Shown: positions 7,257-53,207 of the stretch, one piece after another
Layout: each line of letters opens with the position of its first letter
Position numbering within the stretch: the stretch's first letter is position 1
Source of the DNA: Bacillota bacterium
Lineage (GTDB): Bacteria > Bacillota > Sulfobacillia > JACIYH01
DNA: 53,207 bases
Direction: 5' to 3'
Assembly (NCBI GenBank): GCA_014360055.1
Contig: JACIYH010000009.1
Span: forward strand, 1 to 53,207
Notes under the pieces: generated by a model
Database searches by the model: none
The model's input: the letters and a program-made list of their open reading frames with translations, nothing else
What the model was told of the DNA's origin: nothing
Position numbers and translations under genes: made by a program

Positions 7257-8213
7257 ATGGCACTAAAAGGGAAGATCCTGCGCCCGGGAGACACTATCGC
7301 CCTGGTGTCGCCCGCATCCCCCGTGCACCCGGATGCTCATGTCTCCATGGAGATGCTGGAACTGGCGAGAAAGCGGCTGCATGACATGGGCTTCCATACC
7401 GTGCTCTCGCCCAATGCCCTCAAGCTGCGGGGATACCTGGCGGGCCAGGACGAGGAGAGGGCGGCGGACCTGATGTGGGCCTTCCAGAATCCAGAGGTGC
7501 ACGGCATCGTGTGCATCCAGGGCGGATACGGCACGCCCAGGATCCTCCCCCTGCTCGACTACACCACCATAGCACGGCACCCCAAGGTGTTCGTCGGGTA
7601 CAGCGACATCACCGCCATCCACTGCGCGGTGGCCAAGTTGGTTGGGCTGGTCACATTCCACGGGCCCATGGCCGGTTTCGACATGAGCAAAGAGTTCGAC
7701 TACACCAAGAAATGGTTCTGGCGGGCGGTGGCCCAGCCCGAACCTATTGGGCTACTCTGCAATCCGCCCGAGGGACCGGTCATGGAGACCATCTGCCCCG
7801 GTCGGGTTACCGCCCCCATCATAGGGGGTAACCTGTCCCTGCTGGTCACCACGCTCGGCACCCCGTACGAAATCGATACCACCGGAAAGATCCTCCTCTT
7901 CGAAGACGTGGGTGAGGTTCCCTACCGCTTCGACCGCATGCTCACCCACCTCAAGCTGGCCGGGAAGCTGGAGGCCGCGGCGGGATTCATCATCGCCGAA
8001 TGCGTGGACTGCGTCCCCGGCAACACCAAGCGGCCCATGCTCACCCTGCGCGAGATCATCGGCGACCTCATCGAACCTCTCGGCAAGCCCGCCATATACG
8101 GGCTGGCGGCCGGCCACGGCGCGCGCCGCCTCACCATCCCCCTGGGCGTGCGAGTCACCCTCGACGCCACCTGTTGCGCGGTGACCGTGGAGGAAAGCGG
8201 GGTGCAGGCGTGA
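7257..8213 (+). CDS. LD-carboxypeptidase (peptidase S66, LdcA/MccF type)
   Basis: This protein has 318 residues. S66 enzymes cut the amide after an L-centre before a D-residue, typically removing D-Ala from murein tetrapeptides during wall recycling, or hydrolysing related acyl-amino compounds. The catalytic serine is in GYSDIT (about residue 120), the glutamate in LLFEDVGE (about 222), and the histidine in GLAAGHGARR near the C-terminus, followed by the typical PLGV strand. ATG 7257 is chosen for its AAAGGTGGG ribosome binding site. It follows the importer by 153 bp and overlaps the racemase start (GTGA), so the two are translationally coupled. Context suggests processing of imported peptides or wall fragments. 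Confidence 0.88.
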   Translation: MALKGKILRPGDTIALVSPASPVHPDAHVSMEMLELARKRLHDMGFHTVLSPNALKLRGYLAGQDEERAADLMWAFQNPEVHGIVCIQGGYGTPRILPLLDYTTIARHPKVFVGYSDITAIHCAVAKLVGLVTFHGPMAGFDMSKEFDYTKKWFWRAVAQPEPIGLLCNPPEGPVMETICPGRVTAPIIGGNLSLLVTTLGTPYEIDTTGKILLFEDVGEVPYRFDRMLTHLKLAGKLEAAAGFIIAECVDCVPGNTKRPMLTLREIIGDLIEPLGKPAIYGLAAGHGARRLTIPLGVRVTLDATCCAVTVEESGVQA

Positions 8214-46587: not shown

Positions 46588-46625
46588 GCACCCCCCGCCC
46601 GTCCGCAAAGGCGCCCCCGGGGTGC

Positions 46626-46658
46626 TTGCAATTTTGCAGTGGAAATGCAAAATTACAA
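46626..46658 (+). promoter_or_regulatory. Inverted repeat before the AAA/DUF4143 ATPase gene (probable operator)
   Basis: TTGCAATTTTGCA (46626-46638) and TGCAAAATTACAA (46646-46658) are inverted with one mismatch around GTGGAAA. The repeat abuts the ribosome binding site AAGGAGG (46660-46666). It is AT-rich in GC-rich surroundings, and a bound protein would block expression. Autoregulation is inferred. Confidence 0.65.
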
Positions 46659-46672
46659 GAAGGAGGCGCGCC

Positions 46673-47896
46673 GTGATCCAGAGGTATATCAAGAGGTCGT
46701 TGGAGACGGTCCTCGAGAAGGCGGTGTCCGAGTTCCCCGCAGTTGTGCTGACCGGTCCCCGGCAGTCCGGGAAGACGACACTCCTGAAGCATCTGTTCGC
46801 CGGGTACTATCGCTACGTATCTCTTGAGCCTCCCGACGTCCGCGCGGTCGCCAGGGAAGACCCCAGGGGATTTCTGGCCATGCACCCGCCCCCGGTCATC
46901 GTCGACGAGGTCCAGTACGCGCCGGATCTCTTGCCCTACGTGAAGGAGCAGATAGATGCCCACCGGGACCGGGCCGGGCAGTACCTGCTCGCGGGCTCCC
47001 AGAACCTCTTGCTCATGGAAAAGATCACCGAGTCCCTGGCCGGGCGTGCGGCCATGCTTCGCCTGTTGCCGCTATCCCGCCGAGAGGCAGAAGGACGGCC
47101 CCACGCCCCTCTTCCGTGGGAGTCCACGGAACCGGCCAGCACTGAGAAAACGAGCATATACCGCGAGATCTGGCACGACTTCCTCCGCGGCGGCTACCCT
47201 GAACTGGTGGCCAACCCCGGGCGCGACGTTAGCTTGTGGCACGCGAGCTACGTCCAGACCTACCTCGAGCGGGACGTGCGCATGCTCCGCCAGATCGGTG
47301 ATCTCTCCCAGTTTCAGAGTTTCCTCAGGGCGTTGGCGGCACGAAGCGCCCAGCTCCTGAACCTGTCCGACCTGGCCAGGGACCTCGGCGTGGCAGTGAA
47401 CACCGTCAAGGCCTGGCTTTCCGTCCTGGAAGCTACTTACCAGATCATCATAGTAAGGCCGTATTTTGCTAACCCAGGAAAACGGCTTGTGAAGACCCCG
47501 AAGGTCTATTTCATCGATGTCGGCACGCTCTGTTACCTGACCGGCCTCAAAGAGCCCGAACATGCGGCTTCCGGGCCCATGGCCGGGCCCATCATGGAAA
47601 CCGCGGTCCTTGCCGAGATCGTCAAAACGCTCACGCATCGGGGGATAGATCCGCAAGTCTACTTCTGGAGGACTTTCGCGGGCACCGAAGTGGACTTCGT
47701 GGTCGAAACCGCGGGGAAACTCGTGCCCATCGAAGTCAAGCTTTCGGCAACGCCGCGACCGGCGTTTGCCGCCTCTATCAGGGCATTCCAGAAGGATTTC
47801 GGTAACCGGGCCATGCCCGGCTACGTGGTCCATCCCGGCGATATCCGCCTCCCGCTGGGGTCAAATGTGACAGCTCTCCCGTACGCCCAACTATAG
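46673..47896 (+). CDS. AAA-family ATPase with DUF4143 domain
   Basis: The protein has 407 residues and starts at GTG 46673, with AAGGAGG 6 bases upstream. The P-loop is VVLTGPRQSGKTTLLKHL (residues 24-41), Walker B is PPVIVDEVQYAPD, and sensor-like YLLAGSQNLLLM follows. DUF4143 (about 185-350) has a winged-helix-like part (DLARDLGVAVNTVKAWL). It ends in a PD-(D/E)XK-type fold with EVDFVVETAGKLVPIEVK. These are the residues of a nuclease-like site, usually of unknown activity. The family is common in mobile or defence-related gene pools, often as a single gene behind a TTTGCA palindrome. Function is unknown. Confidence 0.88.
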   Translation: MIQRYIKRSLETVLEKAVSEFPAVVLTGPRQSGKTTLLKHLFAGYYRYVSLEPPDVRAVAREDPRGFLAMHPPPVIVDEVQYAPDLLPYVKEQIDAHRDRAGQYLLAGSQNLLLMEKITESLAGRAAMLRLLPLSRREAEGRPHAPLPWESTEPASTEKTSIYREIWHDFLRGGYPELVANPGRDVSLWHASYVQTYLERDVRMLRQIGDLSQFQSFLRALAARSAQLLNLSDLARDLGVAVNTVKAWLSVLEATYQIIIVRPYFANPGKRLVKTPKVYFIDVGTLCYLTGLKEPEHAASGPMAGPIMETAVLAEIVKTLTHRGIDPQVYFWRTFAGTEVDFVVETAGKLVPIEVKLSATPRPAFAASIRAFQKDFGNRAMPGYVVHPGDIRLPLGSNVTALPYAQL

Positions 47897-48720: not shown

Positions 48721-50520
48721 CTATTCGGTGATGTGCAGCAACCAGAAGACGGTGCGGGCGTCCCAGCCCAGGTCCCAGGGGACGTGGTAGCGGTCGCCGG
48801 TGTGGCTGTTCACCAGGGGGTAACCGGCGGGGTCGTGACCCACCACGAGGGAGACATGGCGGATCTCCCCGCCCTGCTCGTAGCCGATCACGTCCCCGGG
48901 CAGGAGGCGGTAGACGGCACCGTCGGGGGCGGGTCCCACCTCCGGGTAGCGCCCGCGTCCCACCAGGGTAGCACGGCCGCTGTCGAGGAGGTAGTACACC
49001 AGATCCGCCGCGCGCACCCAGGCGCGCGTTCCCTTCCCCCCTGCGTACCGCCACGTGTAGTCGGTGGAAAGGCCCCCCGCCTCGGGGTCGCTCAGGGCCT
49101 GCGAGACGAAGTTGGCGCAGTCACCCCCCAGGTAGCTGTAATCCCGGTAGTCGCGGTTGTAGTGAGAATCCGGACCCGCGGCCGGCCCGCAGTACCGGTC
49201 GGCATAATGGACCGCAGCCTCGCGGCGGTACTTTCCCTCCGCCGGGGTCCCATCCTGGGACCCCGCCCGTGCCGGCTCGATGGGCGGCGAGCCGGCCCGC
49301 GGTGGTCCGCCGGGTTGATGCGGCGGCCGGGGGCCGGGGGACGGCACCCGCGAGGCCGCCCCGTCCGCCACCACGGGCGCCTCGTGCAGGGGATCGGAGA
49401 ACCAGTCCTTGTGTACCAACCACCTGCCTTCACGCCGCACGAACTGCATAACGTGCCAGGCCCCCACCCCGAAGGAGTGACTCATCCCCGGCGCCGCAGT
49501 GTGGTGGTAAGTGATGCGCTCGGTCACGCCCATCTCCAGCCAGGCCCGTTCGCGCTCCACTTCGGCGAGGGCCACACGGACGTGAACCTGCACCCCCTCG
49601 ATGGCTACCTGCCGGGCGGCTGCCCAGGCGGCGAGATGAGCAATGCGCGTATGGTCGTGCTCGCGTGCCCAGCGTCCTACCTCGCGGTCTTCATCGTAGA
49701 AGGCTTCCACGGGGGTGGAATCCGCTGCCAGCAGCCCCGCGGCCCGGGCCTGGTACAAGGTCCGCACCGTATGCGCCAGATCCGCGGGGATGGCGATACC
49801 GGGGGCCACCACCAGGTCACAACTCGCTGCGTCCGTTGGCCCTCCCGCCCGGATGCCCAGGCTGGCCGCCATGGCTACCCCGAGCAACCCCAGGCCCAGG
49901 GTGAGGGGGCCTGGCCAGCGCCCGCTGTTTGTGCGCTCCCGCACTGCGGTGGCGAACCGGCGGGTGGGCTCACGCGTTCCCGGGGCGAGGCGGCCGCCTG
50001 CGCGCAGGGTCAGGCACCAGCACGCGCCGAGCCACGCTGCCCCCAGCACCCAGCCCCCGAGTACATCGGTGGGGTAGTGCACTCCCAGGTAGACCCGGCT
50101 GACCCCAACCACCAGCACCAGCAGGAGGAGGACTACCCTCGTGCCGACCCGCCGGGGGGCCAGCCGACCCAGGAGCAACGCCAGGTATCCGTACAGGACC
50201 AGCGTCACGAAAGCATGCCCGCTGGGAAAGGCATACCCGCCGACCGCGACCAGGTGGGGCAGGTCCGGGCGGGCACGGTGAACCAAGACCTTGAGCAGCG
50301 CCTGTACCAACCACCCCAGTCCGACCGAGGCCGCCAGCCCGCCGGCAAAGGTGCGCTCGCCACGGTGGAGGAGGTAGGCTGCCACCAGGCACACCTGGGC
50401 GATGACCGCAGAGGCAGAACCGAGAGCGCTGAAGAAAAGCATGAGCGGCAGGGCGCACGGGGGCACCAAGCCGCCCACCACGGAAAACCCCAGTGCATCC
50501 AGCGCATGCCACCAGGGCAA
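48721..50520 (-). CDS. PAP2 phosphatase fused to a C-terminal amidase_6 domain
   Basis: The protein has 599 residues. The membrane PAP2 domain (1-190) carries the three phosphatase motifs: KVLVHRARP, YAFPSGHAF and SRVYLGVHYPTDVLGG. A further membrane helix (about 205-225) leads to an extracellular part. That part ends in an amidase_6-type cysteine peptidase-like domain (about 440-599): HYNRDYRDYSYLGGDCANFV with the Cys, and IRHVSLVVGHD plus LVNSHTGDRY with His. The linker (about 385-430) is Pro/Gly-rich. TTG 50520 has an AGAGGG site. A lipid (undecaprenyl or phosphatidate) phosphatase joined to a wall-type amidase suggests a role in envelope maintenance or sporulation. Confidence 0.82.
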   Translation of the reverse strand: MPWWHALDALGFSVVGGLVPPCALPLMLFFSALGSASAVIAQVCLVAAYLLHRGERTFAGGLAASVGLGWLVQALLKVLVHRARPDLPHLVAVGGYAFPSGHAFVTLVLYGYLALLLGRLAPRRVGTRVVLLLLVLVVGVSRVYLGVHYPTDVLGGWVLGAAWLGACWCLTLRAGGRLAPGTREPTRRFATAVRERTNSGRWPGPLTLGLGLLGVAMAASLGIRAGGPTDAASCDLVVAPGIAIPADLAHTVRTLYQARAAGLLAADSTPVEAFYDEDREVGRWAREHDHTRIAHLAAWAAARQVAIEGVQVHVRVALAEVERERAWLEMGVTERITYHHTAAPGMSHSFGVGAWHVMQFVRREGRWLVHKDWFSDPLHEAPVVADGAASRVPSPGPRPPHQPGGPPRAGSPPIEPARAGSQDGTPAEGKYRREAAVHYADRYCGPAAGPDSHYNRDYRDYSYLGGDCANFVSQALSDPEAGGLSTDYTWRYAGGKGTRAWVRAADLVYYLLDSGRATLVGRGRYPEVGPAPDGAVYRLLPGDVIGYEQGGEIRHVSLVVGHDPAGYPLVNSHTGDRYHVPWDLGWDARTVFWLLHITE

Positions 50521-50611: not shown

Positions 50612-51688
50612 TCAGCGGAAGAGGACTTCGGCCACCCTCTCCAGCATCTTGAGGCCCTGGACTTCCGTCTCAAAGAGGGGCACCACCGCCCGCACGTCGG
50701 GGAACAGGTCCCTGATCTGGGCCAGGTACTCCTGCTGCATCATGACGCGGTTGAGCACGAACTCCGAGGTGCTGGCGGAGATAACACCCGGGTCGATGAC
50801 GCCGTTTACCACCACTCCTCCCACGGGGATGCCGAAGTCGTGGAACCAGCCGATGAAGCGCCTGATCACGGCGATGGGCAGGGCCTCGGGCAGGGTCACG
50901 AAGTAGAAGGCCGTGCGGGAAGCATCGGTGAGCAGGCGGTTGGCCTGGCCGATGCGGCCCCGGAAGGAAATTAGGTAGTCCATGAGGGGGTCCTTCTCCT
51001 GCCGCTTGCGGAAGGAGAGGGCCAGGCGCATGGCCTGGGCCTCCTTACGACTTTCCACCATCTTCTCCACCCAGAGGGAGTAGACCTTGGACATGCCCAG
51101 CAGCCGGCGGGCGTTGGCGGTGGGGGCGGTGTCGAAGACGTACACCTCGTACTTGTCTTCGAACATGATGTTAATCATGTTCTCGAACATGGCCGACTCC
51201 TCGAAGGAGGGGTTCATGGTGGCGGTCTCCACGAAGGCATCCGACTCGGTGGGGATGTCGGCGTACTTGAGGAACCAGCGGATCTTCTCCCGGATCTCCT
51301 CTTTAGAACGCTTGATCGTGTCGGCGGTATCGATCTCGTAGGCGTAGAACCCCGGCACCCCCGCCACCTGGCGCTCGGCCCCGAACACGTTCTGCCCCAG
51401 CAGGGCGGAAAGGCTGTGCACGGGGTTGGTGGAGGCCAGCAGCGTCCTGCGGCCCTGGCGGGCGTACCACAGGGCAGCCGCGCCCGCCATCACCGTCTTA
51501 CCCACCCCGCCCTTGCCGCCGAAGAACACGTACTTCAACTGGGGGTGGTTCTGCGTGAAGGCCAGCAGGCTCTCCCTGACCAGTTCCTCTGCCGGTATGA
51601 ACGACACCTGCCTGGCGTTTTGCCCCGTTCCCTGGATCGATTCCCCGGCGCTCTCCGGGACCGTCCCCCGGGTTGCCGATGCTACCAC
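50612..51688 (-). CDS. ArsA/Get3-like ATPase, copy 1
   Basis: The protein has 358 residues. The deviant Walker A is FFGGKGGVGKTVMAGAAAL (about residues 55-73), with the intra-dimer signature Lys present. Switch I reads STNPVHSLSALLG, with Asn in place of the usual Asp (DPAHSLSD). Switch II reads VYVFDTAPTANARRLL, with Asn for the His of PTGHT. A short extra N-terminus (1-40) is present. GTG 51688 has GGGAGG 9 bases upstream. It lies 15 bp after the other ArsA-like gene. Similar proteins energise membrane insertion or oxyanion pumps; no arsB or arsR is nearby. Confidence 0.85.
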   Translation of the reverse strand: MVASATRGTVPESAGESIQGTGQNARQVSFIPAEELVRESLLAFTQNHPQLKYVFFGGKGGVGKTVMAGAAALWYARQGRRTLLASTNPVHSLSALLGQNVFGAERQVAGVPGFYAYEIDTADTIKRSKEEIREKIRWFLKYADIPTESDAFVETATMNPSFEESAMFENMINIMFEDKYEVYVFDTAPTANARRLLGMSKVYSLWVEKMVESRKEAQAMRLALSFRKRQEKDPLMDYLISFRGRIGQANRLLTDASRTAFYFVTLPEALPIAVIRRFIGWFHDFGIPVGGVVVNGVIDPGVISASTSEFVLNRVMMQQEYLAQIRDLFPDVRAVVPLFETEVQGLKMLERVAEVLFR

Positions 51689-51703
51689 GATTCCACGCCT
51701 CCC

Positions 51704-52678
51704 TCAGTTGCCGAACAGCACGCCGGCCATCTTCTCGATCATGGCCATACCGCGGATATCCCGCTCCATCTCGGGCACCTCGGCCAGGATGCGCCCCGCG
51801 AACTCCTCGCGGATGCGCTCCATGTTACCCTTCTGCATGAGGATGCGGTTGCGCAGGTAGTCGGGGATGTCCTGCTCCAGCAGGGCGGGCGGTACCACCC
51901 GGTTCACCACGTACCCCCGGATGGGCACCTCGTACTTACTGAAGAGGCCGGCCGCCTTGACGGTGTCCTCGATGACCATCTCCTCGGGGGTCACCACGAA
52001 GAAGAAGGCGGTGCGCTGGGGATCGGTCAGGATCGAGGACGACTTGTTGATCCGGTCGCGGATGTAAACGAGTTCGTTCAGGATGCGGTCCTCCTCCGTC
52101 TCCTTCTCCCGGCGGATGGTGGCCACCACGGCATCGTACTTGCGCATCTCCTCCCGCAGCCCAGTGATCTTGGTGATCCAGGCGTCGTACACGGAGGCCA
52201 TGCTGAGGTAATAGAGGGCGTGGCCCAGGGGTACCAGGTCGTAGATGTAGTAGTCGTAGCCCCCCTTCACCACGATGTCCACCACCTGGTCGAAGATGGC
52301 GCTCTCCTCCATGGCCGGCTCGGCCGACGCGGCCCGGATGTAATTCTCGATTTCGTCGGGGATCTGGTCCATGCCGTACATATCCCGGATCTTCTGGCGT
52401 ACCTCTTCCTGATATTCGGCGATACGGCGGTCGGCGTCGATCTCGCAGGCGTAAAGGTTGGGTGCGATCTCCACCTCGCCCTTGCCGAAGATATCGCGCT
52501 CAAAAATATCCGAGAGGGAAGCCTGGGGGTCCACGGAAAAGACCAGCACCCGATGCCCGCGATCCGCCAGCCAGCGGGCAGCGGCAGCGGAGAAGGTGGT
52601 CTTGCCCAGGCCGCCCTTGCCCCCGAACATGATGTAGCGGATGCCGGGATTATCGCGGAAAAACTGCGCCAGTGACAA
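51704..52678 (-). CDS. ArsA/Get3-like ATPase, copy 2
   Basis: The protein has 324 residues. The Walker A is MFGGKGGLGKTTFSAAAA (about 17-34). Switch I reads VDPQASLSD, keeping the Asp lost in copy 1. Switch II reads YIYDLVPLGHALYYL, keeping GH but with Leu and Val substitutions. The C-terminal halves of the two copies are alike (MQKGNMERIREEFAGRILAE versus MMQQEYLAQIRDLFPDVR). The start is TTG 52678. It probably forms a heterodimer with copy 1. It follows the 100-residue protein gene by 133 bp. Confidence 0.85.
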   Translation of the reverse strand: MSLAQFFRDNPGIRYIMFGGKGGLGKTTFSAAAARWLADRGHRVLVFSVDPQASLSDIFERDIFGKGEVEIAPNLYACEIDADRRIAEYQEEVRQKIRDMYGMDQIPDEIENYIRAASAEPAMEESAIFDQVVDIVVKGGYDYYIYDLVPLGHALYYLSMASVYDAWITKITGLREEMRKYDAVVATIRREKETEEDRILNELVYIRDRINKSSSILTDPQRTAFFFVVTPEEMVIEDTVKAAGLFSKYEVPIRGYVVNRVVPPALLEQDIPDYLRNRILMQKGNMERIREEFAGRILAEVPEMERDIRGMAMIEKMAGVLFGN

Positions 52679-52811
52679 CGGCCTCGCTACCCCCCTTACC
52701 GTTCCGATTCAACACAGGCGTCCGCCTCACACCAGCGCGCGCTGCACGGTCAGGCGCAGTCCCGGCCGGAGCCCCCGTCCGGAGGCACGTGGCGGGCAGG
52801 TCGGGACGCCG

Positions 52812-53114
52812 TCAGTAGATGGCGTCGGTGAGGTCCTTCTCCCTCAACATACGGCGCTTCCACGTGGCGATCTGGGGAACCACGTAGGGCAGCAGGCGAA
52901 GAGAATAGTACGGCGGCAGGATGGGTACCCCGAGCAGGTCGCCCATGGTGATGAGGATGAAGAGATGCTCCATGCTGGAGCGTGTCTTGAGTGCAAAGCG
53001 GGCCATGTCGTGGGCCGCCATGCCGTAGATGAACTCCTTCACCGCGGACCCCACGGTCTCCCGCGGGGTTCCGCGGTCCGCCGACCGGCCTCCACCCTGT
53101 TTCCAAAAGCGCAT
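52812..53114 (-). CDS. 100-residue protein upstream of the ArsA-like pair
   Basis: The start ATG 53114 follows GGGG by 7 bases. The protein has a polar N-terminus, then alternating hydrophobic segments (EHLFILITMGDLLGVPILPP, then YYSLRLLPYVVPQIATW) and a basic C-terminus (KRRMLREKDLTDAIY). I do not recognise the family. Amphipathic or membrane-associated helices are likely, and it may be a partner or client of the ATPases. It appears to head the three-gene operon. A hairpin (53146-53165, GGGCTGCC/GGCAGCCC) lies in the upstream leader. Confidence 0.7.
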   Translation of the reverse strand: MRFWKQGGGRSADRGTPRETVGSAVKEFIYGMAAHDMARFALKTRSSMEHLFILITMGDLLGVPILPPYYSLRLLPYVVPQIATWKRRMLREKDLTDAIY

Positions 53115-53207
53115 TGATTATCCCCTTTCCCCCGGGCGGCGCCGGGGGCTGCCCCAGGGCAGCCCATCAAGGCCCCCCGTGGCCAGGCCCCCGGCACCCG
53201 CCTGCAG

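Follow-up and report, generated by a model that had tools for sequence, protein, structure and literature searches.

Operons that combine a gene for a CstA-family carbon-starvation transporter of the pyruvate/peptide type with genes for a small protein, CstX, and for ArsA homologues have been in print since 2010, when Castillo and Saier reported 26 of them (PMC2963123), a report that an earlier, sequence-only reading of the locus described here had overlooked. In these operons, which make up clusters 14 to 18 of that study, adjacent ArsA pairs were noted in two organisms, "Sth" and "Par" (cluster 15), and either Asp or Asn was noted at switch I across the single-domain proteins, a variation that was not tied to pairing (PMC2963123). 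It was proposed that ArsA energizes CstA, with CstX as the linker, and that the ATPases may be homodimers (PMC2963123). Our search of the literature, which took in few subscription journals, turned up no subsequent paper in which CstA and CstX are both named. In Escherichia coli, CstA requires its small neighbor YbdD for pyruvate uptake (PMC5847655) and is driven by the proton gradient, without an ArsA-like ATPase (PMC7730263). In yeast Get3, residue D57 positions and activates the attacking water (PMC10248533).

The window, by which we mean the whole stretch of 53,207 nucleotides that was analyzed, carries at its right end three minus-strand open reading frames, of which S is transcribed first, then copy 2, and then copy 1; the list also gives the end of the contig, which lies upstream of S:

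52812..53114, minus strand: S, ORF of 100 aa, CstX-like protein of the cory-CC-star superfamily without the CC C terminus
51704..52678, minus strand: copy 2, ORF of 324 aa, ArsA/Get3-fold ATPase, predicted hydrolyzing subunit
50612..51688, minus strand: copy 1, ORF of 358 aa, ArsA/Get3-fold ATPase, predicted nucleotide-binding, non-hydrolyzing subunit
53125..53207, no strand: final 83 bases of the contig, overlapping an 83-base terminal stretch of C100, another contig of this genome

Upstream of S the contig has just 93 bases left, which is why the window shows no transporter partner for these proteins. The earlier statement that no partner lies nearby holds for the window alone and is otherwise not supported, as the partner is CstA, encoded on C100 and cut off by the contig end. 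C100 (16,151 bases) stops directly after an intact cstA gene, and its final 83 bases aligned with the window's final 83 bases, taken as reverse complement, with four mismatches and one gap (pairwise alignment). The gene order on C100 is LytS-type kinase, LytTR regulator, CstA (5TM-5TMR_LYT and LytTR matches for the regulators; PF02554 at 7.8e-110 for CstA), and the reading frame leads straight into the CstA sequence. Across the contig join, the operon of the source genome is lytS - lytT - cstA - S - copy 2 - copy 1.

The same genes are contiguous in a genome of the same genus (G001), where the order is lytS - lytT - cstA - S - copy 2 - copy 1 - pyrR and where CstA matches PF02554 at 3.8e-124. 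The best NCBIfam match of the G001 response regulator is BtsR (1.7e-47), at 162 bits and so below the 246-bit cut-off. BtsR is the pyruvate-responsive regulator of E. coli. In the window, a DUF4143/AAA_14 ATPase gene (46622-47896, plus strand) lies between the ATPase-pair region and pyrR, and positions 48721-50520 (minus strand) encode a 599-aa protein with a PAP2 phosphatase domain and a C-terminal Amidase_6 domain; both genes look like an insertion in the source genome, because in G001 pyrR, pyrB, and pyrC come straight after copy 1.

Both ATPases passed the family cut-offs, with PF02374 matching copy 1 at 7.9e-60 (203 bits) and copy 2 at 8.1e-68 (229 bits; cut-off, 24.3) and TIGR00345 (GET3/ArsA/TRC40) giving 206 and 222.7 bits, respectively (cut-off, 135). 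The two copies are 36% identical to each other, and the nearest PDB sequences for both are archaeal Get3/TRC40. Copy 1 was modeled with AlphaFold2 (pLDDT 84, pTM 0.82), and the best PDB match of the model was Methanothermobacter thermautotrophicus TRC40/Get3 (3zq6; E 3.5e-24). Set against the canonical switch I STDPAHSL and switch II FDTAPTGH, copy 1 reads STNPVHSL (Asp to Asn) and FDTAPTAN (Gly-His to Ala-Asn), whereas copy 2 reads SVDPQASL (Asp kept, His to Ala) and YDLVPLGH (Gly-His kept, TAPT changed). The losses are complementary, such that copy 2 retains the Asp and the switch II Gly-His and copy 1 retains the switch I His and TAPT. A P-loop with the signature lysine, GGKGGxGKT, was found in copy 1 (GGKGGVGKT), in copy 2 (GGKGGLGKT), and in all relatives covering the P-loop, with AGKGG in symbiobacterial copy 2. 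The sequence-only reading had already recorded the loss of the switch I Asp and the switch II His from copy 1 and the intact P-loop with its signature Lys in both copies, and these motifs bear it out; it had also described copy 2 as keeping the Asp and the His and altered elsewhere, which is correct as far as it goes, with the addition that copy 2 has lost the switch I His that copy 1 keeps.

We gathered 80 relatives through copy 2, to which they are 67-77% identical, and found that the S - copy 2 - copy 1 order recurs in all 80 as far as the contigs extend. In every relative covering the motif, switch I was S[TL]NPVHSL in copy 1 and S[VT]DPQASL in copy 2, with Asn in 99 of 99 copy 1 ORFs and Asp in 98 of 98 copy 2 ORFs, counts in which some loci represent one genome fetched twice, so that not all are independent. 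These relatives come from Bacillota, Chloroflexota, Acidobacteriota, Desulfobacterota/Myxococcota, and Rokubacteria-type genomes. A divergent symbiobacterial lineage follows the same pattern: its copy 1 (VFDTAAVANA) has Asn without Asp, and its copy 2 (IFDMPPFGHG) has Asp with Gly-His. In a tree of 55 ATPases, with thin outgroup sampling and a program warning of long branches, copy 1 and copy 2 each formed a single clade and the two were sisters, with archaeal Get3, the single CC-linked ATPases, and the split arsenic ATPases falling outside them. The asymmetry of the two copies is old and not a local decay.

The pairing also held when whole genomes were sampled. Among 119 Bacillota genomes, the pair was present in 5, all of which have both copies adjacent, together with S and CstA; among 101 genomes of a Chloroflexota-type phylum (that of G176, locus L065), copy 1 was present in 10, and copy 2 adjoined it in 10 of 10, one of the copy 2 genes being truncated by a contig end. 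No genome in these two samples carried copy 1 or copy 2 alone. The median spacing between copy 2 and copy 1 is 38 bases, and their distances gave the strongest correlation among all protein pairs (rho 0.67; permutation maximum, 0.26), a value also expected from shared descent alone. The search for genomes with a single gene had been put forward by the sequence-only reading as a check on its proposal of an obligate heterodimer with unequal sites, and its outcome in both phyla agrees with that proposal: the adjacent pair is obligate (5 of 5 and 10 of 10 genomes) and its unequal motifs are fixed, a pattern that suggests, at one remove, a physical heterodimer.

A different arrangement was seen in three further genomes (G078, G100, and G119), in which a small protein related to S stands beside one ATPase with canonical motifs, without an adjacent CstA. 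The small protein could be read to its end in G078 and G100, where it terminates in ...DWCC. The coordinates of single ATPases with CC-star-like proteins are 7802-8137 and ~8770-9695 in L142 and 1981-3212 in L144, both with the ...DWCC ending, and in L143 ~8004-8135 for the small protein with the ATPase running to ~9190. At least two arrangements therefore exist in the superfamily. In one, which is possibly ancestral, a CC-ending protein accompanies a single symmetric ATPase; in the other, the ATPases come as an asymmetric pair, together with CstA and one or two small proteins that lack the CC ending.

S is the best conserved of the four proteins compared, with mean identities of 82% for S, 75% for copy 2, 71% for copy 1, and 52% for CstA (44 loci), and its alignment across 60 relatives has 28 invariant columns. 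It consists of a conserved, moderately hydrophobic core, EHLFILITMGDLLGVPILPPYYSLRLLPYVVPQI, followed by a basic WKRRMLREKD; its most hydrophobic 19-residue stretch (mean, 1.59 Kyte-Doolittle) lies in the middle of the protein and has an Asp inside. S matched NCBIfam cory-CC-star (NF041419) at E 1.2e-8 and 34.9 bits, under the 80-bit cut-off, while the CC-ending proteins of the single-ATPase loci scored 53-54 bits; S is homologous to the ...DWCC proteins beside single ATPases (hhalign E 7.8e-13), and its own C terminus, ...LTDAIY, lacks the Cys-Cys-stop of cory-CC-star. S is a member of the CstX/cory-CC-star superfamily, its likeness to the CstX of Castillo and Saier being one of description. 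Their type of CstX has a single transmembrane segment, for which the hydropathy peak of S is borderline. An assignment to YbdD/YjiX (PF04328) was rejected, with no Pfam match and an hhalign P of 0.39 against E. coli YbdD. A PDB profile search with S returned no match at E <= 1, and the AlphaFold2 model of S made from 60 relatives (pLDDT 55, pTM 0.22) was uninterpretable. A second, divergent S paralogue is present in 46 of the 80 loci, so that S occurs once or twice per operon. It had been suggested earlier that S is the client or the adaptor of the ATPases; adaptor is plausible, and client is less so for the most conserved protein of the four, present in one or two copies per operon.

CstA lay inside the fetched flanks in 61 of 80 relatives, or 61 of 68 when only those with enough flanking sequence are counted. 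The other 19 comprise 12 with <2.5 kb of upstream sequence and 7 with at least 4 kb; when 12 genomes lacking CstA in the flanks were searched, 11 had CstA on another contig. The CstA-CstX-ArsA operon type of Castillo and Saier was found in the source genome, in G001, and in these 61 relatives. Two further proteins were seen near the trio. One, of ~210 aa with an N-terminal hydrophobic segment, occurs in loci of Chloroflexota and Acidobacteriota, where its gene usually separates cstA from the second S gene and runs in the opposite orientation (L096, 4542-5162; L058, 4549-5247; L091, 4473-5114, all minus strand; about 20 further loci), and no Pfam family matched it over the cut-off. The other, a 160-195-aa protein of no known family, occurs in 8 loci (among them L080, 4901-5392; L037, 2306-2800; and L083, 7976-8560).

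From the order of the genes, the obligate pairing of the two copies, the complementary motifs that stay fixed, the CstA link, and the predicted fold of copy 1, we favor, with moderate confidence, the reading that the three proteins serve a CstA-type transporter operon as its ATPase module, in which a heterodimer of copy 1 and copy 2, docked through S, would act on CstA. The Get3 signature lysine extends into the site of the partner subunit, and since it is kept in both copies, each copy could complete the other's site in a Get3/ArsA-like heterodimer. Copy 2 would then carry out ATP hydrolysis as the fast site. As D57 of Get3 positions the attacking water, copy 1, with Asn in place of Asp, should bind ATP and not hydrolyze it; copy 1 would thus be the natural equivalent of Get3 D57N, a latched site that binds ATP and holds it. 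S, whose C-terminal tail is basic, would be an adaptor associated with the membrane that docks the heterodimer on CstA. ATP-driven opening and closing would then work on CstA in the way that ArsA works on ArsB, a secondary transporter, so as to energize, gate, or lock uptake, with pyruvate or a related compound as the substrate and a two-component system of the BtsS/BtsR kind in control. The action on CstA may be energizing, gating, or assembly. E. coli CstA runs without such ATPases, and the ATPases would therefore add a function rather than serve a general need for transport. Counting against this reading are the 7 loci in which 4 kb or more of upstream sequence contains no adjacent CstA. 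We advance only tentatively, as something less probable than the module itself, the further idea that an asymmetric heterodimer with an adaptor makes the proton-driven CstA (predicted LeuT fold) ATP-driven or ATP-gated, as a counterpart of ArsAB with an unrelated transporter in several phyla.

The strongest competitor, which we judge unlikely though by no means negligible, is a Get3-like targeting or assembly factor, in which the heterodimer would deliver S or a CstA helix to the membrane co- or posttranslationally, outside any transport cycle. Both copies are nearest to archaeal Get3/TRC40 in sequence, copy 1 is so in fold as well, both pass the TIGR00345 cut-off, and S is small, with a hydrophobic stretch that is borderline. 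Moreover, conservation is far stronger in the ATPases and S than in CstA, as in a general biogenesis device, a pattern that fits biogenesis at least as well as a pump and therefore keeps this explanation alive. However, neither copy has the CxxC zinc motif of Get3, with [ED]FVxNR or YLRNR in its place, and on inspection of the alignment the helical insert of the client groove is present but looks shorter and less hydrophobic, without the archaeal Met/Leu-rich run. The mid-protein position of the hydrophobic stretch of S, with its Asp, also implies that S is no typical tail-anchored client.

It is improbable, in our estimate, that the two copies form separate homodimers on S or CstA, with copy 2 catalytic and copy 1 sensing nucleotide. 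The canonical single-gene relatives beside a CC* protein must be homodimeric or monomeric, and Castillo and Saier allowed that single-domain proteins may be homodimers (PMC2963123), but no copy 1 was found that lacked copy 2, the spacing between them is short, and the degenerate motif halves are complementary. An arsenic-resistance ArsA split into two genes does exist elsewhere, in the ArsD-ArsA1-ArsA2 clusters of G093 and G095 (L145, 7600-9690, and L146, 6428-9302, the latter with ArsR and a neighboring Acr3-like transporter in addition). As an account of the present pair we give it almost no credence: the two copies reached just 92 and 88 bits with TIGR04291 (arsenical pump ATPase; cut-off, 650), no ars gene was found in the G001 operon or as a recurrent neighbor in the relatives, and the G093 and G095 halves form a separate clade. 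Both of those halves keep canonical TTDPA and DTAPTGH, and motif degeneration is for that reason specific to the CstA-linked pair. Orthology with mycobacterial BagA/BagB (Rv3679/Rv3680), likewise a two-gene Get3-like pair and one that has been cocrystallized (6bs3-6bs5), is very improbable, with NF053622/NF053621 scores of 42-53 bits for BagA and 33-38 bits for BagB (cut-offs, 400 and 521) and PDB matches to 6bs3 of just 23-37 bits. Get3d was ruled out by family score (NosAFP, 59-72 bits versus 325).

Although the gene neighborhood was published in 2010, no earlier description of the fixed asymmetry between the two ATPases seems to exist. What is added here is the obligate complementary asymmetry and its spread, the paired S paralogues, the LytS/LytTR link, the relation of S to CC-star, and the relatives with a single symmetric ATPase and CC*. 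If our favored reading is true, the Get3/ArsA family would have in this pair a member that is asymmetric by nature, with one site in a state otherwise made artificially (D57N), so that no mutation would be needed to study what each ATP site does. The pair would also put to the test the proposal of 2010, apparently not taken up again in the literature that we searched, that ArsA-like ATPases power transporters of substrates other than arsenic, and would give a role to several uncharacterized proteins, very highly conserved, of Chloroflexota, Acidobacteriota, Desulfobacterota, and deep Bacillota.

Among known systems, archaeal Get3/TRC40 (3zq6, 3ug6) shares with the pair its fold, the nearest PDB sequence, and the P-loop with signature lysine, but it is a homodimer with intact DPAH and DTAPTGH motifs, a CxxC zinc motif, and a hydrophobic client groove. 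Like the ArsA of arsenic pumps, split forms included, the pair would put two unequal ATPase units on a secondary transporter, whereas arsenic ArsA has canonical motifs in both halves and is linked to ArsB, Acr3, ArsD, or ArsR. Mycobacterium tuberculosis BagA/BagB (Rv3679/Rv3680, 6bs3) is also a two-gene Get3-like pair, and a heteromeric one; the copies described here fall far under those family cut-offs, and BagA/BagB belongs to Actinobacteria. We know of no link between BagA/BagB and CstA. The E. coli cstA-ybdD and btsT-yjiX-yjiA operons resemble ours in joining a CstA-family transporter to a small accessory protein under LytS/LytTR (BtsS/BtsR) control, except that the NTPase of btsT-yjiX-yjiA is the GTPase YjiA and not an ArsA-type pair. 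With the operons of Castillo and Saier this locus shares CstA, a CstX of ~90 aa, single-domain ArsA ATPases of ~330 aa, and the absence of arsR; their account took the ATPases to be homodimers and contains no description of fixed complementary motifs, LytS/LytTR regulators, or relatives with a single ATPase and CC*.
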